Shown here one piece after another: positions 10,514-20,785 of a stretch of 33,921 nt of DNA. Position numbers and translations under genes: made by a program. Numbering within the stretch: the first letter of the stretch is position 1; the number at the start of each line of letters is the position of its first letter. Under the pieces are notes generated by a model. The model searched no databases. It worked only from the letters and a program-made list of their open reading frames with translations, and was not told the origin of the DNA. This DNA comes from an uncultured Ruminococcus sp. (GTDB lineage: Bacteria > Bacillota > Clostridia > Oscillospirales > CAG-382), in NCBI GenBank assembly GCA_902772845.1, contig CACYCI010000057.1:1-33921 (forward strand), given 5' to 3'.

Positions 10514-11335
10514 ATGAAAGCTATGAATCTGCTTCCCAAGGTATTCACAAACCGGGCATTCGATAACGCGGGGCTCAAAATGGGCGATAACGACGGCCCG
10601 GCTTACGTCGTGTACGGCGCGCTCGGTACGGGAAGATGTTCTATGGAAATAGATTTTTCCGCCATAGAGGTCAACAACGTACGCGCTTCCGATAATAAGA
10701 CCGTCAACGGATATATGTTCCTCGGGTGCGACGTATATTCCGGCGAGCATTGGATCAACTGTTTCGACACCGGTTTCTGCTACAGCGGAAACCCGGGCAG
10801 ATGGCATCTGTTCTATAATATTTACGATCCCGCAGAAGGCGTTGCCGGCTGGTACGAATCCGACATAACGCTCGACTGTACGCATAACTACCGTCTGGAA
10901 CTCGATACGCTCCGCGTAGACGGCTATGCGGTCGTTTCCGCGTACGATCTTGATGAGAAGGTCTACGCAGATATCAAGCTTTTCCCGGTCAAAGGGCTGC
11001 GTTCAAGCGGACGCGACACCGCCTGCCTTATGAATTTCGCGCTCGATTATCCGCCCGATACCAAACTCGGCAGGGACGGTCAGCCGAGCGAGGATTTCGC
11101 CGAGATCACTCTTTATAATACCGACGAAGGGCTCAAGTTCAAAAATATCCGCGTCACCAACGCGCATATATGGTACGGCGGCACCGAGCACGCCTGGCTC
11201 GACAAATACACCGACCACCGCGGAATGTGGCCCGATATCTCTTTTGAGCAGTTCGATTACGACTGCACCCGCGTCACGTTCGGTCATAAGATCACCGACA
11301 GCGAATTCGTCGTCGACCTTGATATGAACAGATAA
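10514..11335 (+). CDS. Hypothetical 273-aa protein, probably beta-rich and cytoplasmic
   Basis: I do not recognise this protein. It has no signal peptide, membrane helix or lipobox, so it should stay inside the cell. It is rich in aromatic residues and in short alternating strands (YVVYGALGTGRCSMEIDF, YMFLGCDVYSGEHWINCFD, LKFKNIRVTNAHIWYGG). This suggests a beta-sandwich of the concanavalin type seen in carbohydrate-active proteins, but no catalytic pair can be picked out. It has its own strong promoter, a good ribosome site (AAGGAG) and a strong terminator, so it is a real single-gene unit. It lies divergent from glycerate kinase and next to the phage cassette; its codon use looks like the host's. 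Confidence 0.7.
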   Translation: MKAMNLLPKVFTNRAFDNAGLKMGDNDGPAYVVYGALGTGRCSMEIDFSAIEVNNVRASDNKTVNGYMFLGCDVYSGEHWINCFDTGFCYSGNPGRWHLFYNIYDPAEGVAGWYESDITLDCTHNYRLELDTLRVDGYAVVSAYDLDEKVYADIKLFPVKGLRSSGRDTACLMNFALDYPPDTKLGRDGQPSEDFAEITLYNTDEGLKFKNIRVTNAHIWYGGTEHAWLDKYTDHRGMWPDISFEQFDYDCTRVTFGHKITDSEFVVDLDMNR

Positions 11336-11349
11336 AAGTGAATAAACGT

Positions 11350-11387
11350 AAAGCACGCAAAGCAGAACGCCTTGCGTGCTTTCTTTA
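11350..11387. terminator. Bidirectional terminator at the end of the phage cassette
   Basis: An 11-bp stem, AAAGCACGCAA (11350-11360) with TTGCGTGCTTT (11372-11382), has a T-rich flank on the plus side. It ends the 273-aa gene and probably also the minus-strand cassette, whose last stop codon touches it. Confidence 0.8.
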
Positions 11388-11702
11388 TTTCTTGTGCGAA
11401 ATATAATTCTTTTTCAGCGTCATATCGGCTTTGTTGACTGCGGCGGTATAGTTGGCTTCGGCGATCTCAAGCTCGGTTTCGGTGCAAAGCTTGCGGGCGT
11501 AGCGGGCGAGCGCTATCAGCAGCTCGTTCGCCGCGTGGTCTAACTCAAAGCGCGATATCTGCTCTTCAACGTATTCGCGCCGCCTGCGTTCGGCGTCTTC
11601 GGCGGCGTTTTTCATCGCCCTGCGCATAAGCGCGGCTATTACCGCGCCTATCACGCCCGAAGAGGAAAAAATCACCGCAAGCGCTTCGGTGATATAGCTC
11701 AT
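11385..11702 (-). CDS. Phage-cassette membrane protein with helical cytoplasmic tail
   Basis: This 105-residue protein has one N-terminal membrane helix (about residues 5-27, ending in RRAMK), followed by a charged, helical segment (about 28-80) likely to form a coiled coil. It is the last gene of the cassette. Its ATG overlaps the stop codon of the 24-aa peptide (ATGA), so translation is coupled. Its position beside the holin suggests a role in membrane disruption or a second holin or antiholin, but no family is recognised. No endolysin gene follows; the next feature is the terminator. Confidence 0.65.
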   Translation of the reverse strand: MSYITEALAVIFSSSGVIGAVIAALMRRAMKNAAEDAERRRREYVEEQISRFELDHAANELLIALARYARKLCTETELEIAEANYTAAVNKADMTLKKNYISHKK

Positions 11703-11773
11703 GGCCTTATCTCGTAAATAAGCGCCGCTATCAGCTCAAACGCTTTTTTCAGCGAAAATATAAGCGTTTTCAT
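11699..11773 (-). CDS. 24-aa amphipathic peptide between two lysis-region genes
   Basis: This short reading frame encodes MKTLIFSLKKAFELIAALIY then EIRP. Its ATG overlaps the holin stop codon (ATGA), its TGA overlaps the ATG of the 105-aa gene (ATGA), and GGTGA lies 6 bases ahead. Overlaps on both sides make a real, translationally coupled gene likely. The peptide is hydrophobic and amphipathic; function unknown. Confidence 0.55.
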   Translation of the reverse strand: MKTLIFSLKKAFELIAALIYEIRP

Positions 11774-12069
11774 GCGTCGTCACCATTCCTTTTGCCGTAC
11801 TGCTTTACAAGATTGTGCGCGTACACCGTCGCGCCCGCGCAAAGCAGCCCCTGCGCCGTGCCGAAAGCCAAAAGTTTAAGAACTCCGCCCGCGCCGTCCG
11901 GAACTCCGTTCGCCAGAAGCCATACGGTCGCCAGGATTATTCCGGCTCCGCCCAGCACGAACGGGATCTTCCAATCCGCAAAAGAGGAACGTTTGAGAGA
12001 AGCGCCGATAATATACAGCACCGGCAGCAGCGAAAGCAGCTCCGGCTTTATGTATTCGTACATTTCCAC
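11770..12069 (-). CDS. Phage holin
   Basis: This 99-residue protein has three membrane segments (about 11-26, 35-54 and 63-85) and a charged tail. Its N terminus, EYIKPELLSLLPVLYIIGASLK, fits the Phage_holin_5-type family found in Firmicute phages. Holins form holes that let an endolysin out at the end of the phage cycle, but no endolysin gene is in this cassette. The start used is GTG at 12069 behind GGGGTGA; the ATG at 12063 is an alternative. It lies 17 bases after the coiled-coil gene. Confidence 0.8.
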   Translation of the reverse strand: MEMYEYIKPELLSLLPVLYIIGASLKRSSFADWKIPFVLGGAGIILATVWLLANGVPDGAGGVLKLLAFGTAQGLLCAGATVYAHNLVKQYGKRNGDDA

Positions 12070-12085
12070 GGCTTCACCCCCCCTT

Positions 12086-13387
12086 TCAGTTCCTTATAAG
12101 CGGCTCGGCAAGGTTCGTTTTTGTGTTGGCGCTTCTTCCGCCGCCACCGCCTGTGCGCTCGCTTTTGGAAGACTGTGCGTCGTTTGCGGCTCCGCCGGAT
12201 ATGCTTTTGAGCTTATCGGCATTTTCCTTAAGATATTTAGCCGCTTCGCTTTCGCTCACGCCGATCTCCACGCAGCATTTTTTGAACTGCTCCGCGTTAT
12301 CGCAACGCTTTATGCAGTAGTCGAGCCGGGCGTTTTGCGCCATTTCCGCGGCGTATTGCTTTGCGTCCTTTTCTTCTATCCGCAGCGTGCCGCACGCCTT
12401 CAAAGTATTGGAATACGTCTTCTTGTACGCTTCTTCGGAATCGCCCGCTATCCTGTACGCCGCTTCATCGTTGCCGTCGGGGACGTAGTATCCCAGCCCG
12501 CTCAGAGCCGCGCGCACGTCTTTAAGATATTCAGCGCTGAGTTCTCCCCGGCGTTCCAGTTCTTTAAGGTAACTGTCTACGTTCAGCACGTCGCTTACAG
12601 TCTTTATTTTGCCGCCGGAACTTGCGCGTTCCGCCGCTATTTCCTTTGCGAACTGCGTCGCCGTCTGCTTGGGACGGGACGCCGTTTCTGCGCTGCCCGG
12701 CGTTTCACCGCTTTGCGCGCCTTTGCCTGCAGATACTGATTTTTCGCGCTGCATCTCAAGCTCGTGCTCGCGCTTTTTGGCGTTTTCCACCGCTTCATAT
12801 TCGCGCTTCTTCGCGGCCTCGGCGGAAGCGTGCTCTCTTTCTTTTTGCGCGGCCGCTTCTGCAAGCTCGGCTTTTATCCTAAGCAAAGTCTCGTTGTAAT
12901 CGCGCTCGGCTTGCTTTTCCGCTTTGGCGTTTTCGGCGTCAAAGCCCGCCTTTGCCATAGCGGCCGCTTCGTTTTCCAAACGCTTGCTTTCGTCGTTTGC
13001 CTTTTCGGCGTATTGTTTATCCAGCTCGGCAAGCGCCGCGTCGGCGCCCGACCTCGCTGCGCTTTCGCTTTTTCTCCTTTCTTCCGCAAGGGAAGAGACC
13101 TTCTTCGCAAGCCCGAGCGAACGTTCTATATATTCCTGCTCGGCTTCGCCGGAACGCGAAAGCCCGCGGGCAGCCATGAACTGTTCCGCGTTCTTTTCCA
13201 GTATCCTGTTTGCCGCGGAGGCTTCGTTCAGATCGTTGCGGAACGCCCTGTTTATCTCCGCTATCTCGGCGTCGCGGCGGCCTTTGACGGAATCGACTGC
13301 GTTTTCATAATATTCGCGGTATTTTTTCAGCGTGTCGGTGTCGCTTAGATATTTCTTTGCTTCTTCAAGATAATCCTTATAATCCAT
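12086..13387 (-). CDS. Coiled-coil virion protein, ejection-protein-like
   Basis: This 433-residue protein has no membrane helix. Residues about 1-230 are almost wholly helical and rich in Ala, Glu, Lys and Arg, with long coiled-coil stretches (QKEREHASAEAAKKREYEAV). A Ser/Gly/Thr-rich linker (about 235-260) follows, then a compact helical domain (about 265-410) and a Gly/Ser tail. It follows the tail-hub gene, the place where P22-like phages encode proteins carried in the capsid and ejected with the DNA. The start (ATG 13387, AAAGGAG upstream) overlaps the end of the previous gene by 11 bases. The structural role is inferred from position and composition only. Confidence 0.6.
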   Translation of the reverse strand: MDYKDYLEEAKKYLSDTDTLKKYREYYENAVDSVKGRRDAEIAEINRAFRNDLNEASAANRILEKNAEQFMAARGLSRSGEAEQEYIERSLGLAKKVSSLAEERRKSESAARSGADAALAELDKQYAEKANDESKRLENEAAAMAKAGFDAENAKAEKQAERDYNETLLRIKAELAEAAAQKEREHASAEAAKKREYEAVENAKKREHELEMQREKSVSAGKGAQSGETPGSAETASRPKQTATQFAKEIAAERASSGGKIKTVSDVLNVDSYLKELERRGELSAEYLKDVRAALSGLGYYVPDGNDEAAYRIAGDSEEAYKKTYSNTLKACGTLRIEEKDAKQYAAEMAQNARLDYCIKRCDNAEQFKKCCVEIGVSESEAAKYLKENADKLKSISGGAANDAQSSKSERTGGGGGRSANTKTNLAEPLIRN

Positions 13388-15068
13388 TGTTTACTCCTTT
13401 GTCGTCGTAGCTGATGCCGTAACCCAGGATCTTAAGCTCCTTACCGGCTGGGCACTTGAATTCCACCGATAACCCGCTTATGTGCGGAATGCAGAACGGA
13501 ACGTTTACAGTCAGCGCGTTTCCGTGGTGCGCCGGATCCACCGTAAAACTTTTTTCAGCCGAAAGAGGTCCGCTTTCGCCCGGCCAGCAGAGCTTTACGC
13601 TGCCTGCGGTGACGTATCCTGCCTGAAGAGTCAGATCGACACAGCGTATGTCTTTAAGTGAACTGCATCCCAGGTCGGAATAGTGCGTTTTGTAATGCGC
13701 GACGTGCGCACGGACGGTCTGCGTGAAACGCTTTATGTATTCGCCTTCGACGGTGTATACGTCGCCAAACGCTTCAAATACCTTAGAAACTCCGGGGACA
13801 GATATCAGGTACCATTTTTCTGCGGCATAGTTGAAGATCGCGGCGAGTCCGCCGCATATTACCCACAGTTCGCTGCGCGACGGGATCTCAAACAGCTTTG
13901 CCCTTGCGCTTATCCCGCCTGTTTCGGGCAGTATCGAATCGTTCACCGGGGCTGATATACATACTGCGTTCTTTTCTGTTTCCACGCTGGAAGGGCGCCA
14001 TACGTTCACCCCGTCACGGCAAAGAGTCGCGGCCAGCCCGTTGATGCTGCACGAGCTTCCGTAAACAAGATTGCCTTTTCGCGGATGCAGCGGATACACC
14101 GGAAACGAAGCAAACGCTTTCCCGGACGGAGCCGTTTTCATTTCGCAGTATGAATAATACGCCGAATCCGTGGTAAAAATAAGCTGCTTGTCGTATTCCT
14201 GAACCATATCGGTTATAGGCGCGCTGCCCACGCAAGTGTAGTTGTTTACGGGGAAATACTCTGCGCTCGGAACGCCGTCGGCAAGCTCGCTGTGGATCCG
14301 CATACACGGCTTTTCGGCGTTGTTCCACAAAAAGACACGCTCGTCCGCGTCGGAACCGAACAGTATGGCGTTTCTGTATCCCAAAAACTCGTCTCTGCCG
14401 GATACCGCTGCGGAATACGTTATCTCAAGCGTGTCTATGCCTTCGGCCGGCGCAGTCGCCATTGTGACAGTCCCGTTTACGGTATCTGCCATATAGTCGA
14501 TCGAGTCGCACACCTCGCCGTTGAATACGACTTTATCTATCGATCTCAGGTCCTTTTCCGCAAGTCTGAAACATGTTTCCGTACCGTCGGGAGAAAAAAG
14601 CTGCCTTCGCGCAGGGGTGAGCATATTCACCGCTTCGTACGCTGTGCCGGCGCCGGAAGGCGAAGTCGATACCGATATGAGCGGAACGTACCCTTCCACG
14701 CTTTCAAGCACGCTGCCGTCATATCGGAAATATCCCGCATCGCTCAGCATATACAGCTTGCTTTCGTATTTGAAAAAAGCGGCGCGGTGCGCCCCCGAAA
14801 GGGGAGTCACGATAGTTGCGCCGGAATCGGGATCGTGGTCGCAGAACGATCCGCCGGCGAGGAACACGAACGCTTTTCTGCCCGCCAAGACTCCTGCCCA
14901 GCAGGCGACAATGTTTCCGGGGGCTCTGACCGACGTTTCTCTGCCGGGGCATTTATAAAGCGAACCCCCCGCGTCGATCGCAAAACCATCGGTTTCGACC
15001 GCGTACTGCGGCTTTTTTGCGTATTTGTCTATGCCGCCGAAACTTCCGTAATAAACGCTCCGCTTCAT
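13377..15068 (-). CDS. Tail hub / nozzle-like protein (P22 gp10-like)
   Basis: This 563-residue, beta-rich protein has repeating short motifs of the type FRYDGSVLESVEGYVPLI, AILFGSDADERVFLWNN, QLIFTTDSAYYSY and LWVICGGLAAIFNYAAEKWYL. This is the look of a beta-propeller in which each blade ends with an aromatic turn. Proteins of this type form the hub or nozzle below the portal of short-tailed phages (P22 gp10, T7 gp12). The length is close to P22 gp10 (472) with an extra C-terminal sandwich domain. The ATG overlaps the previous stop by one base (TGATG). The phage structural role is fairly sure; the exact equivalent is inferred from fold and position. Confidence 0.7.
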   Translation of the reverse strand: MKRSVYYGSFGGIDKYAKKPQYAVETDGFAIDAGGSLYKCPGRETSVRAPGNIVACWAGVLAGRKAFVFLAGGSFCDHDPDSGATIVTPLSGAHRAAFFKYESKLYMLSDAGYFRYDGSVLESVEGYVPLISVSTSPSGAGTAYEAVNMLTPARRQLFSPDGTETCFRLAEKDLRSIDKVVFNGEVCDSIDYMADTVNGTVTMATAPAEGIDTLEITYSAAVSGRDEFLGYRNAILFGSDADERVFLWNNAEKPCMRIHSELADGVPSAEYFPVNNYTCVGSAPITDMVQEYDKQLIFTTDSAYYSYCEMKTAPSGKAFASFPVYPLHPRKGNLVYGSSCSINGLAATLCRDGVNVWRPSSVETEKNAVCISAPVNDSILPETGGISARAKLFEIPSRSELWVICGGLAAIFNYAAEKWYLISVPGVSKVFEAFGDVYTVEGEYIKRFTQTVRAHVAHYKTHYSDLGCSSLKDIRCVDLTLQAGYVTAGSVKLCWPGESGPLSAEKSFTVDPAHHGNALTVNVPFCIPHISGLSVEFKCPAGKELKILGYGISYDDKGVNNGL

Positions 15069-15484
15069 CAGTATACCTCTTTTATCGGTTCGGCGACCGC
15101 AGGCGCGGAAGAACGGTAAAGCGCGAACGCGGTTTGATACATCTTATCGAGTATCTGTGCGGTTTTGGGATCGTACCGCAGCGCCACCAGCACGGCGGTT
15201 TTCAGCGGAAGAACGCTGTACGCTACAACGGAAGCCGCGGTTATCTGTGTGTCGAACGCCGTTACTGCCGACGGAGTTATATCATTTGGAGAAAACTCGC
15301 GGTTGATCCTGTTCACTTCCTGTATCGCTGCGTTTATGCAGTCGAGCGCCGCGCCCCTGCAGCGTTCCGCAAACTGCGCTTGGGCGCCTGTGTCTCCGTT
15401 GCAGCCCAAAAACGACATCACAGTCGAAAAGATCTGCTCGGGCGTAATGACTGCGTCGTTATTCAAAACCCAGTTATCAGACAT
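15068..15484 (-). CDS. Head-tail connector-like protein (P22 gp4 position)
   Basis: This 138-residue helical protein starts MSDNWVLNNDAVITPEQIFSTVMSFLG. The start is set by AAAGGAG 6 bases ahead of the ATG at 15484; an upstream in-frame ATG has no ribosome site. Its size, all-helical character and place between the coat/decoration genes and the tail-hub gene match P22 gp4 and other head-completion adaptor proteins. These bind the portal ring and begin tail assembly. No diagnostic motif is seen, so the name rests on gene order. A very strong hairpin without a T run lies just upstream of its ribosome site. Confidence 0.6.
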   Translation of the reverse strand: MSDNWVLNNDAVITPEQIFSTVMSFLGCNGDTGAQAQFAERCRGAALDCINAAIQEVNRINREFSPNDITPSAVTAFDTQITAASVVAYSVLPLKTAVLVALRYDPKTAQILDKMYQTAFALYRSSAPAVAEPIKEVY

Positions 15485-15504
15485 TCTGACTCCTTTCTCT
15501 GTGC

Positions 15505-15531
15505 GCGGCTGCGGCATTTTGCCGCAGCCGC
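15505..15531. other. Strong 11-bp hairpin between head genes
   Basis: GCGGCTGCGGC (15505-15515) pairs perfectly with GCCGCAGCCGC (15521-15531) around a 5-base loop. No T run follows on the minus strand, so it is more likely an RNA-stability or expression-ratio element than a terminator. Confidence 0.6.
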
Positions 15532-15563
15532 AATGTGTTAAGCGTTGTCCGGCGTTTTTTGAT

Positions 15564-15953
15564 TCAATGAGTGATAACGCCGGAGTAGACCGCGCTCACC
15601 GTAACGCCGCACCCTTTTACGGTGTTCATGGCGTTGGGGCTTATCTTTACGCAGACCTTGCCGCCGGCGTTTTTGACGAACCCGGATTCAACGGCTATCG
15701 CGCAATGTGCGTTCTTGGCGAGCGTGCAGTTGCTTTCAGCAAATCCGTTTCCTTCCGCTGCCGCAAGCACGCATACCTGCACTGCCGAAACGTTTCCGTT
15801 CGTAACAAGTATATAACAGGTCTCGTCTTTTGCCGGGAAAGCCGCCTCGAACACTTCGGGGGTACCGTTGGTTTCGGAAACGCCTTCCGCATTCGTAAGG
15901 ATCTTAACCGTATTTTCGGGGGATACGTATGTGGGGGTGACTGTGATTGCCAT
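15564..15953 (-). CDS. Capsid decoration-like protein
   Basis: This 129-residue beta-strand-rich protein begins MAITVTPTYVSPENTVKILTNA. It has many Val/Thr/Ala alternations and no membrane helix. It follows the coat gene by 24 bases, the usual place for head decoration or cement proteins and Ig-like head fibres. Decoration proteins bind the outside of the capsid and stabilise it. The ribosome site AAAGGAG is 9 bases ahead of the ATG. No known family is recognised; the call rests on position, size and composition. Confidence 0.55.
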   Translation of the reverse strand: MAITVTPTYVSPENTVKILTNAEGVSETNGTPEVFEAAFPAKDETCYILVTNGNVSAVQVCVLAAAEGNGFAESNCTLAKNAHCAIAVESGFVKNAGGKVCVKISPNAMNTVKGCGVTVSAVYSGVITH

Positions 15954-15977
15954 TGTTTCGTTCTCCTTTCAAAAAAC

Positions 15978-16802
15978 TTAAATGGTGTTGCCGCCGTCGA
16001 TGACGGGAGCGCATACAAGTTCGTTGGGCTTTATGACTTTTGCGCCGAAAACTATCCTGCCGCGTACAGCCGTGTCGAACGAGTCTTCCATGCGGTCTAT
16101 GACCTGTGTATCGAGTATCTGTTCAGCGTAGCCGATCGCCGAATATGAGCCCGCGAGCGCGAATACCGTGGTACCGTAATTGGAAAGCTGGTTGGAAACG
16201 TAAAGATCGCAGCCGAGCTCGTCGGTGTAACCTATCGCTCCGGTCCCGTTTACGCCTTCGTTCACCGAAAACTTGATCCCGGCAAGGATCAGCTTGGTCT
16301 TGAGGAAGGGAGGGATGACTATCCAGGACTGTCCGTCTGGGACGTTGGCTTTTTCAAGCGCCTCTTTCATTTCCGCCACTACCTGCAGCGCGTTGGCGGG
16401 AGTTACCGTCGCGGAAGCGAGCGTGGTCCCCGCGCTTCCGTAAAGGCCGAGCACGTACGAGTCTACGCTCTTTTTGAGGTTATAGCTCGCGCGCTTGGTC
16501 TGCGAATCTTTCAGCCCTATGGAGCTGCGCAGCGCTTCAAGGTCTTTCACCTTGAATGCGAAATATTTGTCCTGATCGATATTCAGCTTTATGGCGTTGT
16601 CGTCGATATCCTCGTAACTGACTACGCCGTCATAGGTGCCGACAGCCGGATCGTTCAGGCCGATGAACGTAACGGAATCGCCTGCGTTCTTTATGTCGCC
16701 CGCAAAGGACGTGTTGCATATCTTGTTGGCGATAAGGTTGTCTTCGTTCGTACGAAGTATCTCCGCAGAGATTATTTTTTCAATGGAATTGTAATTTGAC
16801 AT
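15978..16802 (-). CDS. Phage major coat protein
   Basis: This 274-residue protein directly follows the scaffold-like gene. Features of phage coat proteins are the N-terminal segment NSIEKIISAEILRTNEDNLI, the spine-helix-like region from about residue 115 (LKKSVDSYVLGLYG), PDGQSWIVIPPFLKTKLI near 165, and a C-terminal part with many short strands (GRIVFGAKVIKPNELVCAP). It is shorter than P22 coat (430), close to the minimal HK97-type fold without an insertion domain. The start is supported by AAAGGA about 9 bases upstream. The assignment is strong from order and sequence style; no structure-level match can be run here. Confidence 0.8.
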   Translation of the reverse strand: MSNYNSIEKIISAEILRTNEDNLIANKICNTSFAGDIKNAGDSVTFIGLNDPAVGTYDGVVSYEDIDDNAIKLNIDQDKYFAFKVKDLEALRSSIGLKDSQTKRASYNLKKSVDSYVLGLYGSAGTTLASATVTPANALQVVAEMKEALEKANVPDGQSWIVIPPFLKTKLILAGIKFSVNEGVNGTGAIGYTDELGCDLYVSNQLSNYGTTVFALAGSYSAIGYAEQILDTQVIDRMEDSFDTAVRGRIVFGAKVIKPNELVCAPVIDGGNTI

Positions 16803-16817
16803 TTTATCGTTCCTTTC

Positions 16818-17345
16818 TTATGCTTTCCATTTTTTCATGGAGCTTATGATCTTTGCGAAATTGCTCTTCACCGCTGAAGCGGGCATTTTTTCGACTTCGC
16901 TTTCGCTGAAAGCGGGCGCTTCGGCTCTTCCGGGCATGACGGGCGCCGAACGCGCCTCGTTCTGCGCGTTGATCTCGTCGCTCGTCTTTCCGCCCGACAT
17001 TATAGAAAATGCGTATGCGTATGCGAGCGGGATCCCTTCAGCGGCGTCTTCCCATACCTTTTGCGGCACGGCTTCGGGCGCCACGCCGGGGAAAGCGGCG
17101 ACGAATTCGCGAAGCTGCTTTTCGAATTCCTCTTTTTCATGCGTCTTGCGCTTTTCTTCCCTGAAACTGCGCTTTATCTTTTCCGCGTCGGCTGCTTCCG
17201 CCTGAAGCTCCGGCGGAAAATTTCTGAACCTTTCGGCCCGCGCGCTTTCGGCGTTTTCCGTCAGCGCAAGCAAAAACTCTTCCGTGCTCTTGCCTTCGCT
17301 TTCGGCGAGATCTTCAACGATCTCAATAACTCTTTTATCCGTCAT
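16818..17345 (-). CDS. Scaffolding-like protein
   Basis: This 175-residue acidic/basic helical protein is rich in Glu, Ala and Lys. A central coiled coil (about 50-95) is followed by a small domain and a Pro/Ala-rich linker, and the protein ends in a short basic helix (SNFAKIISSMKKWKA). Internal scaffolds of tailed phages have this layout: a helical rod with a basic C-terminal coat-binding helix. It lies between portal and coat, the scaffold position. The ATG overlaps the portal gene end by 11 bases and has AAAGGAAA upstream. The call is inferred from position and composition. Confidence 0.65.
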   Translation of the reverse strand: MTDKRVIEIVEDLAESEGKSTEEFLLALTENAESARAERFRNFPPELQAEAADAEKIKRSFREEKRKTHEKEEFEKQLREFVAAFPGVAPEAVPQKVWEDAAEGIPLAYAYAFSIMSGGKTSDEINAQNEARSAPVMPGRAEAPAFSESEVEKMPASAVKSNFAKIISSMKKWKA

Positions 17346-18882
17346 TTCGGTTTCCTTTCTCGTTGTTTTCGCGTATCTCTTCGATAAGCTGTTCCTTGGA
17401 AGCCAGCAGATTTTCCGGCAGACGTTCGAGATACTGTATTATGTTTATGTGTCCGCCGTTCAGCAGATTGTCAAGCGTGTTAAGGCAGGCGATCTCCGAC
17501 CAGTATGCCGAAGGACCTACGTCTATGCGGCATTCGAACAGCGCGTCGCGCTGCTTGCCCAGACTGAAACGCTCGTATTTGCCGTCTATCTTCACAAGGC
17601 GCCCTTCACCGTAGCAGGCGGTGATAAAGTCCAGCCATACCAGCCCTATATCTTCTATAAAGCGGTAAAACTGGCGTTTGACGCTTTCAAGCGGCAGCGT
17701 CGAAGCTTTTTGCAGCGCAAGTATAGCGGAAGTGTTGTTGGGCTGCACGTCGCCCAAAGCCGTGTCTGTCGCCCCCAGGCATTCCTTGGTCGCCGACATC
17801 GCCATGTTTATCACTTCAAGCATTCCCGCCTGCATTTGCCCGGGAAGAATGACTTTTGCGACGTCGCTCACCGGCCCGTCCACCTTAATGGCTTCGCCTA
17901 CGCGGTTGGACCATTCGTCGAGTATGGTGCCGTCGTAAACGACTTTTGAAAACGCGGTGTCCATCATGTGCTTCATGGCCATGGCGTATCCCTTGTTTAT
18001 AAAGAGCTGGTTTTCCGTAAGCCCGGTCGCCACGGCTTCGCCGTGCCAGGAATTTTTGGATTTCGTCCAGTTCATAACGGCTATGGGATATCCCCGCAGA
18101 CCTGTTTCGGTCTCGCCGCAGATCACCGCGTCGCGCGTGGATTTACGGTAACGTATCTTGCCGTCTTCACCGCGCCACAGCTTTATAAGCGAAATACAGC
18201 GGGTGTTTTCGAGTTCGATCTTAGAAAGATCGCCGCTCCCGTTTTCGGTATCGGAATCCGGCTTTATTTTTGCCGCCTCTTCTTCGCTCCTGCCGTTCCT
18301 GCGCGCCTGAGAACGCAGATCTTCCACGTTTTCGCGTTCGGAAATAAGAATCCAGGGCTGCTTTTGCACGTTCCGTTCGTTCGGGTTCCCGAAAAACACG
18401 TCCGTGTTGTCCACAAGTACCGTCTTGAAGTCGCCTTTGAATTGCTGCCCTGTCTTTACGCAGGCATCCCAATAGGTGTAGGCGACCGCGTCGCCGCTGA
18501 GCGCCGCGTCGTGGAGCGCGTCGTCCATGAACTCCTCCATCCGCATATCTTCCCAGCGGCGTTGAGCTATTCCGTTAAGCAGACGCTCGTACGTCTCCGC
18601 GGAATCCTTGCCGACCGGAAGCCCGTCGCCGAAAGGTTCGCCGTACGAAAATTTCATGGCGACCGAAGTGGAAAGTATGGAAGACGAATAGTAGTTGATT
18701 ATGCGTTTGAAGATGTTGAAGACCGGGCGCGGGAGGTTGCCTGACCTTGCCCCCTCCCACTGGTCGCCGCGGTAGAACCTTTCGTTGGAAGCCACCTTGT
18801 TATAAAGGTCGAGCGATAAATTATACGCTTTTCCGCTTTCGTAAAGCTTCCAGTCTTCGGTAGTCGGAGTTTTGATTTTCAA
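17335..18882 (-). CDS. Phage portal protein
   Basis: This 515-residue protein should form the dodecameric ring through which DNA enters and leaves the capsid. The N-terminal segment NERFYRGDQWEG, followed by LPRPVFNIFKRIINYYSS (residues about 33-65), is typical of podovirus and related portals. The middle has DVFFGNPNERNVQKQPW, and the region from about 340 (MQAGMLEVINMAMSATKECLG) is the stem/tunnel-loop part with the familiar NNTSAILALQKAS motif. The start is TTG at 18882 with AGGAGG 12 bases ahead; no in-frame ATG fits better. The gene begins 16 bases after terL. Confidence 0.85.
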   Translation of the reverse strand: MKIKTPTTEDWKLYESGKAYNLSLDLYNKVASNERFYRGDQWEGARSGNLPRPVFNIFKRIINYYSSSILSTSVAMKFSYGEPFGDGLPVGKDSAETYERLLNGIAQRRWEDMRMEEFMDDALHDAALSGDAVAYTYWDACVKTGQQFKGDFKTVLVDNTDVFFGNPNERNVQKQPWILISERENVEDLRSQARRNGRSEEEAAKIKPDSDTENGSGDLSKIELENTRCISLIKLWRGEDGKIRYRKSTRDAVICGETETGLRGYPIAVMNWTKSKNSWHGEAVATGLTENQLFINKGYAMAMKHMMDTAFSKVVYDGTILDEWSNRVGEAIKVDGPVSDVAKVILPGQMQAGMLEVINMAMSATKECLGATDTALGDVQPNNTSAILALQKASTLPLESVKRQFYRFIEDIGLVWLDFITACYGEGRLVKIDGKYERFSLGKQRDALFECRIDVGPSAYWSEIACLNTLDNLLNGGHINIIQYLERLPENLLASKEQLIEEIRENNEKGNRNDG

Positions 18883-18898
18883 TTCTTTTCTATTCCTC

Positions 18899-20248
18899 CT
18901 AACAGTCTAAATAATCGTTGTACCCGGCGTTGATCCTGCGGCTGCCGAAACTGTAGGTACCGCCGAGCTGTGTTTCCGGCTTGGTGTCGCAGCGCGGCTC
19001 GCGCGACATCAGCGCGTAGCGCAGCGCTTCGGGGGCGTGCGTTATATCGTGCGGGACGTCCGCGGCGTCCTCGGACGTATCGGGATCGAATGCCAAAGAG
19101 GGAAGACACCGTATCAACTCTTTACACGACCTCGTGATATGTATCCGCGGGACGCCGTCTTCCGCACCCGGACGAAGATATTCACGCACGACGCGCCAGC
19201 CGGGGATGCGCGCATTATCGGCGCGCCTCAGACCCCTGAGCCCTGCCTCGGTCATTATCTGTACTCCGCTTTTACCGCTGTCCTGCCGCCTGTTCCACAG
19301 ATCCGGCGAGGCCACCGTGTACCTTATAACCTCGTTTTCCGGCGTTGCCTTCAGGATCGCCGCCGCGGCTTCCGAAAGTATAAGATCGGGCATACAAAGC
19401 TCGCGGTAAACGACCAGTCGTCGTTCGGGCGTGACGGCGATCCAAAGGCAGGCGGTCATATCCAAACCGTAATCAAGCGCGCGGAATTTGACCCATTCGG
19501 AAGACGGATGAAGGTCGGGGATAACATGTTTTGATTCGTCGAATTCGGGGAAAAACATGCCTTCAAACGAATTCCAGTCGCCGTATAGCATTGCGCGCTT
19601 TCTGGTTTCGGGCAGCGCTTCGAGCGTGCGAAGATAGCCCGGATCGTGCTCCATAAGGAACGAATTGTCGTAGACGAGACTCTTTATGAAAACATAGTCG
19701 TCAGGGTCTTCGTTCATACGGTACTCGCGATCTATAAAAAGACGCTTTACCCAGTTGTTGCCAACGCCTCCGGGATTGCAGGTAAAATACATACGCGGTG
19801 AAAACGGCTTGGTCATCGAACCGGAAACACGGTTGCATTCGGTAAGGCACAGGAACTGAAAATAAGTGAATTGAGTGGCTTCCTCCATCCCGATAACTTC
19901 GTACGCCTGACCCTGGTATTGTAGTACGTCGGATTCGGAATCGAGATAACCGAGCTTGATGCGGCTCCCGTTCGGAAAGGTGAATTCCTTAGCGGAATCC
20001 TTGTAAACCGCCACTCCGTTGAGCAGAGCGCGAAGCGGGATGATGTGGTTTTCTCTCAGCTCGCCGAGCGTTCGCCTCAGAAGAAGGATATTTATCCCTG
20101 CGTAATGCGCGGCGAGCAGAACGCATTTCATTCGCATGGCCCACGACTTTCCTCCGCCGCGCGCGCCGCCGTAAGCGGTGTACTTTGCTTTTGATCTGAA
20201 AAATTCCAGCTGCTTGGGGTTGGGAAGCATGTCAAACTGTTTAAGCAT
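18899..20248 (-). CDS. terL: Terminase large subunit
   Basis: This 449-residue packaging motor ATPase and nuclease has Walker A GGARGGGKS at 27-35, Walker B VIGMEEAT with Glu122/Glu123, and the coupling motif TCNPGG at 156-161. The RNase H-like nuclease residues are Asp259 (ALDYGLD), Asp316 (ASPDLW) and Asp401 in DITHAPEALRYAL (401-413). All active-site residues are present and the length is normal, so the protein should be functional for both translocation and cutting. The gene starts 6 bases after terS. Whether packaging is headfull or site-specific cannot be told from sequence alone. Confidence 0.95.
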   Translation of the reverse strand: MLKQFDMLPNPKQLEFFRSKAKYTAYGGARGGGKSWAMRMKCVLLAAHYAGINILLLRRTLGELRENHIIPLRALLNGVAVYKDSAKEFTFPNGSRIKLGYLDSESDVLQYQGQAYEVIGMEEATQFTYFQFLCLTECNRVSGSMTKPFSPRMYFTCNPGGVGNNWVKRLFIDREYRMNEDPDDYVFIKSLVYDNSFLMEHDPGYLRTLEALPETRKRAMLYGDWNSFEGMFFPEFDESKHVIPDLHPSSEWVKFRALDYGLDMTACLWIAVTPERRLVVYRELCMPDLILSEAAAAILKATPENEVIRYTVASPDLWNRRQDSGKSGVQIMTEAGLRGLRRADNARIPGWRVVREYLRPGAEDGVPRIHITRSCKELIRCLPSLAFDPDTSEDAADVPHDITHAPEALRYALMSREPRCDTKPETQLGGTYSFGSRRINAGYNDYLDC

Positions 20249-20254
20249 AGCGTG

Positions 20255-20611
20255 CTACTCGCTCCATTCTTCCGCAAGTCCGCGCAATATCAACGTGGCA
20301 CAGTTCAGATCCTCGGGCTTGTCACGGTAGCCGTGATCGTTCCTCAAGTCGAAAGCTAACACGGCGGCAGGCAGCTTTCCGCGATAAGCCAGCTGTTTCT
20401 TTGCAGCCGCTATTTTTGTCTTTGCGCTTTTTACCGTGCGTGAAGTTTTCTTGGAGCCTTCAAGCTCGTTGAGGTCGTCGCGGGTTATCCCTAAATAAGC
20501 CGCAAGCGATTCCGTATCTGGAACGACAGACGGGTTTTCGGCGATGTACTTTTCGAAATAATCTGTTGTGAGTCTTTCGAGCTCGGCGATCTTGAACGGG
20601 TATTTTTTCAT
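20255..20611 (-). CDS. Terminase small subunit
   Basis: This 118-residue DNA-recognition subunit begins MKKYPFKIAELERLTTDYFEKY and has a helix-turn-helix at about 31-50 (DTESLAAYLGITRDDLNELE). It is followed by a basic helix (RTVKSAKTKIAAAKKQL) and the common tail VLAFDLRNDHGYRDKPE. The frame is open back to a TTG at 20632, but AAAGGAG (20618-20624) lies 6 bases before the ATG at 20611, which is taken as the start. It is the first gene of the cassette, downstream of the LexA box, promoter and leader hairpin. Confidence 0.85.
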   Translation of the reverse strand: MKKYPFKIAELERLTTDYFEKYIAENPSVVPDTESLAAYLGITRDDLNELEGSKKTSRTVKSAKTKIAAAKKQLAYRGKLPAAVLAFDLRNDHGYRDKPEDLNCATLILRGLAEEWSE

Positions 20612-20649
20612 TCTCTGCTCCTTTCGTGCCAATACCTTTTTGCGGAAAC

Positions 20650-20680
20650 AAAAATCGAGCCGCGCCGGCTGCGACCCGAT
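20650..20680 (-). terminator. Terminator-like hairpin (attenuator candidate) in the leader of the phage operon
   Basis: On the minus strand 20680-20654 folds into a 10-bp stem with two G-U pairs and a 7-base loop, followed directly by a T run (20654-20650). It lies after the predicted RNA start (about 20691) and before terS, so it could stop most transcripts unless overridden. Confidence 0.6.
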
Positions 20681-20697
20681 CTCGTTTTCACACTTTC

Positions 20698-20726
20698 ATT
20701 CTAAACCCGAATATGCTCCGTTTCAA
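20698..20726 (-). promoter_or_regulatory. Promoter of the phage cassette
   Basis: On the minus strand TTGAAA (20721-20726) and TAGAAT (20698-20703) are 17 bases apart, 87 bases ahead of the terS start. It is the only good promoter seen in the gap between the trk terminator and terS. Confidence 0.75.
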
Positions 20727-20731
20727 TATGC

Positions 20732-20745
20732 CGAACGTATGTTCG
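20732..20745. promoter_or_regulatory. LexA (SOS) box upstream of the phage cassette promoter
   Basis: CGAACGTATGTTCG (minus strand CGAACATACGTTCG) matches the Firmicute LexA consensus CGAAC-N4-GTTCG perfectly. It ends 5 bases upstream of the -35 box of the cassette promoter, between it and the trk terminator. This predicts repression by LexA and induction by DNA damage. Confidence 0.85.
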
Positions 20746-20756
20746 TATGAACTCAC

Positions 20757-20785
20757 AAAAAAACATGCCCGTTTTTGGGCATGTT
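20757..20785 (-). terminator. Terminator of the trk operon
   Basis: On the minus strand the stem AACATGCCC / GGGCATGTT (20762-20785) is followed by seven T (20763-20757). It separates trkH from the phage cassette on the same strand. Confidence 0.92.

Follow-up and report, generated by a model that had tools for sequence, protein, structure and literature searches.

The 33,921-nucleotide stretch of DNA analysed here (the window), which is an entire 33.9-kb contig of a source genome that is 88% complete, carries an operon of eleven genes that is probably a domesticated, vertically inherited podovirus-derived particle operon, and most likely a gene transfer agent (GTA). Domestication is argued because the cassette is fixed, vertical, intact, selected and minimal, and a GTA is the best of the domesticated functions since conservation extends both to the catalytic residues of the terminase and to a short tail of the DNA-conducting type. 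The block is a strong GTA candidate, and from its sequence we infer that its particles would package and deliver host DNA. By analogy, an experimental precedent exists in the same class in FpGTA of Faecalibacterium, a podovirus-like GTA (Borodovich et al. 2026, PMC12946183).

Organization of the operon

The eleven genes form one operon on the reverse strand (11385-20611; 9.2 kb) between trkH and a gene of 273 aa. They are ordered as TerS, TerL, P22-like portal, scaffold-like protein, coat, small protein, adaptor, nozzle, coiled-coil protein, holin and small protein. A preliminary description of this DNA had listed intact genes for TerS, TerL, portal, scaffold-like, coat, decoration-like, connector-like, hub-like and coiled-coil proteins, and all of these are indeed present and open, as are the remaining two. 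The same description spoke of a minimal cassette lacking integrase, replication, lysin and tailspike genes; none of these was found in the block, but it had overlooked the holin at 11770-12069. Replication, repressor and tailspike families were unmatched by any block or flanking protein scanned, and PADLOC defence models gave 0 matches among 7 proteins scanned.

A promoter-like site, TTGAAA-17-TAGAAT (20698..20726, reverse strand; 10/12 in a consensus scan), lies upstream of terS, and a hairpin with a T run read from the sequence (20762..20785, reverse strand) would end trkH transcription. After the last gene, a scan together with the sequence revealed a terminator-like hairpin of 15 pairs (11350..11382, reverse strand). 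With these three sites, all of them consensus matches alone, the operon looks self-contained, with its own promoter-like site and terminator. An open frame of 24 codons, read from the sequence between holin and last gene (11699..11773, reverse strand), may be due to chance; genus g6 has no room for a counterpart. The GC content of the block (0.51-0.57) is slightly above that of its flanks (0.46-0.55), which corrects the earlier statement that its base composition is that of the host. Direct repeats of at least 16 nt bracketing the block were not found, in keeping with the flanking repeats reported absent before, and the sole tRNA in the window stands 8 kb from the block.

Packaging and head genes

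The small terminase subunit TerS is of the gp3 type (20255..20611, reverse strand; PF16677 3.6e-10, phrog_606 2e-8). Its start is most likely at 20611, where AAAGGAG precedes the ATG as a good ribosome site, rather than at 20745; the open frame could also begin at 20632. TerS aligns with nearly the entire gp3 packaging family. The TerS proteins of RcGTA and FpGTA have been reported to lack a DNA-binding domain, that of FpGTA being described as without an obvious one (PMC6854486, PMC12946183). Given these descriptions, a TerS that appears near full length for the gp3 family may count against the GTA reading. The large subunit TerL (18899..20248, reverse strand; PF04466 4.8e-13, phrog_979 1.8e-47) has a Walker A motif (GGARGGGKS), an acidic Walker B, D259, D316 and a PHxITH motif. 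The ATPase and nuclease residues had been described as complete, and they are also invariant in relatives, save for Asp/Glu at the third acidic site.

The head genes follow the terminase. The portal is of the P22 type (17335..18882, reverse strand; PF16510 5.1e-16, phrog_156 1.6e-32). The scaffold-like protein (16818..17345, reverse strand) is named from its position between portal and coat and matches phrog_14606 at 2.3e-6, a family of unknown function. The major capsid (coat) protein of 274 aa (15978..16802, reverse strand) matches phrog_267 at 9.4e-39 and PF25209 at 9.7e-11. The small protein encoded after the coat (15564..15953, reverse strand) matches no family and keeps its position in most relatives; a role in decoration is a guess.

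Tail and lysis genes

AlphaFold models, built from the window sequence and genome-contig relatives only, support two roles that the preliminary description had given in broader terms. The connector-like gene (15068..15484, reverse strand, with the start corrected to 15484; 138 aa, pLDDT 83) is predicted to encode a head-tail adaptor of the P22 gp4, Sf6 gp7 and T7 gp11 type. In VIA comparisons the model matched A4 (Z 12.6), Sf6 gp7 (9.8), P22 gp4 (9.4) and T7 gp11 (8.6); all matches at Z 7.4-12.6 were phage adaptors, and the next unrelated fold scored 4.7. The tail-hub-like gene (13377..15068, reverse strand; 563 aa, pLDDT 91) is refined to a predicted tail nozzle of the P22 gp10 and T7 gp12 type. 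Foldseek matches 1-29 of its model were all podovirus-type nozzles (E 1e-19 to 1e-11), with P22 gp10 at 2.8e-14 and a TM to target of 0.69. VIA gave Z 26.5 with Pa223 and 22.5 with P22 gp10; the nozzle call rests on whole-chain coverage because unrelated propellers score as high as Z 20-21. The adaptor and nozzle folds and the P22 portal family liken the block to the tail machines of P22 and Sf6; it differs in that no needle or tailspike was recognised in it, and the matched tail parts are 7-14% identical.

The coiled-coil protein (12086..13387, reverse strand) retains an RGLxxSGExA-like motif across an alignment of 37 relatives; from its position it might, as a guess, be an ejection protein. 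The holin is of the Hol44 type (reverse strand; PF16079 1.6e-18, phrog_1129 8e-16). The operon's last gene (11385..11702, reverse strand) encodes a small protein with an N-terminal hydrophobic stretch, which is conserved in 24 relative loci and weakly matches the phrog_1350 holin (0.015). No endolysin lies in the block, and searches made for the cassette family, which covered one amidase and one fibre family, yielded no endolysin, tailspike or receptor-binding protein that fits. An amidase two to three genes upstream of the block in genus g2 was considered as endolysin and rejected, being a core gene that also occurs in block-free genomes.

PBSX of Bacillus subtilis is a long-tailed killing particle. 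It resembles the present block as a domesticated phage-like particle of a Bacillota host (PMC12946183), and the sole sequence link seen between the two is a match of TerL to the PBSX family model at 66.5 bits, below the cut-off of 105. The presence of a holin would suit a PBSX-like particle, which may package host DNA and serves to kill neighbours or lyse its producer, with no gene delivery; selection would equally keep a particle function other than transfer. The TerL ATPase and nuclease residues are nevertheless invariant and the terminase is retained even where unlinked, from which it follows that DNA packaging matters, and the short tail has a nozzle of the kind that conducts DNA. Transfer by a GTA would itself be deduced here from sequence, and the authors of FpGTA leave the PBSX-like alternative open for their own element (PMC12946183). 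On this evidence a PBSX-like particle is considered improbable, at perhaps one chance among several for the block.

Distribution in genomes and viral databases

In a portal search, all 4 genomes of the genus, and 21 of the 37 available for the family, each had a single intact copy, with no portal interrupted by an internal stop. Most of the genomes surveyed are MAGs. Annotation of regions up to 20 kb around 25 copies with iterated profiles revealed a kept order of TerS, TerL, portal, scaffold, coat, (small), adaptor, nozzle, coil and (holin, small), with no other recognisable phage genes alongside. The cassettes of genus g2 are without the holin and the last gene, and the post-coat small protein was unrecognised in g6. 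Some genomes of the clade (G013, G023) have no cassette. A few copies are imperfect: G024 and one f24 genome have a split nozzle, and in G010 a frameshift probably lies where nozzle and coil meet; these imperfections could be sequencing errors.

The preliminary description had named as its main alternative a recent deletion that left only the late genes of an ordinary P22-like prophage, and the block does consist of late genes without replication or integration genes. A recent deletion is excluded because divergent genera share the same minimal block: the set recurs in 8 genera, with portal identities to the window of only about 55-62%. All genes are moreover under purifying selection, and a full relative at the site was not found. 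A deletion remnant is thus given next to no credence as an account of the block.

Of 394 genomes drawn from the order, 136 have a related portal, mostly as a single copy, and outside the order only 13 drawn genomes had a portal match at E<=1e-20. Named genomes, when scanned, yielded 55 loci. With a single exception their titles are those of MAGs from Clostridia, Eubacteriales or other Bacillota, and many come from the ruminant gut; the exception, L109, is on a contig binned as Bacteroidetes. In IMG/VR (2.9 million viral contigs) the best portal relative was 59% identical over 283 residues, a part of the portal, and TerL had no confirmed relatives there. Among 50,697 phage records the best portal identity was 31.5%. 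Near relatives were therefore found in neither collection. The IMG/VR contig with the 59% identical portal (L029, 5.6 kb) could be a cassette of chromosomal origin that was entered as viral.

Vertical inheritance and selection

Distances for TerL, portal and coat combined correlate with those for rpoB (r 0.95, Mantel p<=0.0002; 19 family genomes). Genera with several members are all monophyletic in both the block and the rpoB trees, and branching within g1, g2 and g6 is the same in both; deep inter-genus nodes are weak and partly discordant between the two. A portal tree with 70 rows places families f1, f17 and f20 in one clade each and unites the three in a supported clade without phage rows. 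The agreement of trees and distances indicates that the block has been inherited mostly vertically and has diversified along with its host.

Pairwise dN/dS within genus g1 (window, L033 and L034) was 0.01-0.30 across all eleven genes, as compared with 0.03-0.18 for host neighbours. Coat and TerL gave 0.01-0.07, the coat 0.03, and the coil up to 0.30. Single values are rough where dS is near 1; the pair L033/L034, with dS of about 0.3, agrees. The earlier suggestion that selection may keep the block, to be examined by dN/dS of terL, portal and coat, is borne out by purifying selection on all genes, by the single copy across the family and by congruence with the host tree.

Genomic site and mobility

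In genus g1 the block lies between trkA-trkH and the 273-aa gene followed by a glycerate kinase gene, and in both same-genus genomes with the site assembled it is there, intact and under purifying selection. In other genera the neighbours are lepA (mostly with GtrA) in g5, g6 and g8, and GtrA in g2. Because the neighbours are constant within genera and different between them, the block must have moved or its flanks been reshuffled at the scale of genera. The flanks, as far as scanned, contain host genes and genes of unknown kind, with host genes on both sides in the window and in relatives. A clean empty site at trkH is undefinable, as trkA-trkH is kept in other genera and the downstream genes vary. 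The 273-aa gene itself (10514-11335, forward strand) was rejected as a particle gene, since it belongs to a secreted lipoprotein-like paralogue family found at loci without cassette genes. It lacks the signal peptide of these paralogues and stays beside the block in the genus.

In 20 cassette genomes, 100 tyrosine-integrase matches were obtained and none was within 20 kb of a cassette; one was on a cassette contig, 28 kb off. A full prophage with integrase at the locus in relatives, which the preliminary description held would speak against its reading, was not found at any copy in searches for tyrosine integrases. Among the genes of a temperate P22-like prophage, a tyrosine integrase (within 20 kb, 20 genomes) and replication, repressor and tailspike genes are thus missing. 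The variation of sites between genera could be taken as a sign of a satellite-like or still-mobile minimal element, self-packaging and moved by a helper phage or an unlinked recombinase, as could a serine recombinase after TerL in one f17 genus. Such an element is hard to reconcile with the 0 of 20 f1 cassettes having a tyrosine integrase near, the absence of flanking repeats, a phylogeny that tracks the host, the f17 terminase unlinked from the head genes and the lack of copies among near viral contigs. A mobile element of this kind is therefore judged very unlikely.

Sister family f17 and alternative cassettes

In the sister family f17 the portal cassettes (L141-L147, L053) have no adjacent terminase. 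Head, adaptor, nozzle, fibre and coil genes stay together, and in all 13 genomes TerL has a separate locus (L215-L226), which lies on a different contig in 12 of them and at a distance of 24 kb in the remaining one; in several it lies in a short TerS-TerL island. Portal and TerL identities correlate (r 0.87, 8 genomes), so the two parts co-diversify. A split terminase would be hard to maintain for a replicating phage or a satellite that packages itself, but not for a host-encoded GTA; known GTAs are frequently distributed across several loci (PMC9662315). The serine recombinase of one f17 genus (464 aa; L216, L217, L219, L223) comes directly after TerL and is followed by a conserved series of host genes, one of them for a prmA-like methyltransferase. 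Cassettes of f17 also encode, between nozzle and coil, a glycine-rich protein resembling a tail fibre or receptor-binding protein (L141:5708-6568, reverse strand; L142:11048-12130, forward strand). As the receptor-binding protein of the present system it was rejected, with 0 homologues in 16 f1 genomes.

Genera g3, g4, g7 and g9 of the same family had 0 portal matches and carry an alternative minimal cassette (L210-L213), in which TerL and nozzle are related and the P22-type portal, coat and scaffold are different. Minimal TerL-portal-scaffold-coat-adaptor-nozzle-coil cassettes are also present in f13 (L161, L166, L168; mostly genus g99), where they adjoin FtsK/SpoIIIE-like and uppP-like genes at what is apparently another fixed site.

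Comparison with known systems

Six attributes of GTAs have been listed (PMC9662315): homology to tailed phages, endogenised genes, vertical inheritance, random host DNA, an undersized head and delivery. The present block shows the first three: its products are homologous to tailed-phage proteins, its genes are endogenised, with host genes on both sides and the terminase unlinked in the sister family, and its trees and distances follow those of the host. The other three would be properties of its particles. FpGTA, compared here by the description of its operon, likewise has an operon of about ten genes with TerS, TerL, portal, scaffold and coat, homologues in short-tailed phages, no replication genes and a Clostridia host, and is conserved in all examined species of its genus (PMC12946183). 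It differs in that its tail fibre, receptor-binding protein, holin and endolysin are encoded by a second operon, whereas the holin of the window block is in the main operon. FpGTA particles of about 40 nm package DNA of about 9 kb, which matches host-genome fragments of 8.4-8.9 kb found in faeces (PMC12946183). Against a capacity of 8.4-8.9 kb for FpGTA heads, the window block measures 9.2 kb.

RcGTA and the other alphaproteobacterial GTAs (Rhodogtaviriformidae) are also vertical and host-congruent and occupy several loci, as seen here in f17. They belong to another host class and have long tails of the siphovirus type (about 49 nm in RcGTA), in contrast to the podovirus adaptor and nozzle of the window block. 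The nearest named phages by portal (31.5% identity) are the Pagevirus podoviruses of Bacillus megaterium, which have TerS, TerL, portal, head genes and tail protein in the same order. These are phages of about 40 kb with a tailspike and many other genes that the block does not have.

Possible function and significance

As a GTA, the operon would be switched on in some cells. A small head would be assembled on the scaffold, TerS and TerL would load it with pieces of host chromosome, and adaptor and nozzle would close it as a short tail. The holin may aid particle release, and a peptidoglycan hydrolase and a receptor-binding protein would be supplied by genes elsewhere in the genome, like the second operon of FpGTA. 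Several points weigh against a GTA: endolysin, tailspike and receptor-binding protein were not found, the site varies between genera, and some copies are imperfect or missing.

A podovirus-like GTA is a kind already known through FpGTA (2026). Few GTAs have a known genetic basis, mostly in Alphaproteobacteria, and for Bacillota the open-access literature found names only PBSX and, since January 2026, FpGTA. The present candidate is conserved through its family, and related, mostly single-copy portals occur in roughly one in three genomes sampled from the order. The unlinked f17 terminase is a signature of domestication, readable from sequence alone, that can be searched for elsewhere.

The chances are about even that an ancient podovirus-type GTA became fixed before several families within a single Clostridia order diverged and has been vertical since, with one lineage moving its terminase to a separate locus and keeping head, tail and fibre genes together, and other genera having an alternative cassette with shared TerL and nozzle and another portal and coat. 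If so, DNA-packaging particles are an ancestral trait of these gut bacteria. Overall, a podovirus-type GTA candidate could help explain GTA-like packaging in faecal viromes, and it would suggest that the exchange of DNA by particles is of long standing in gut Clostridia.
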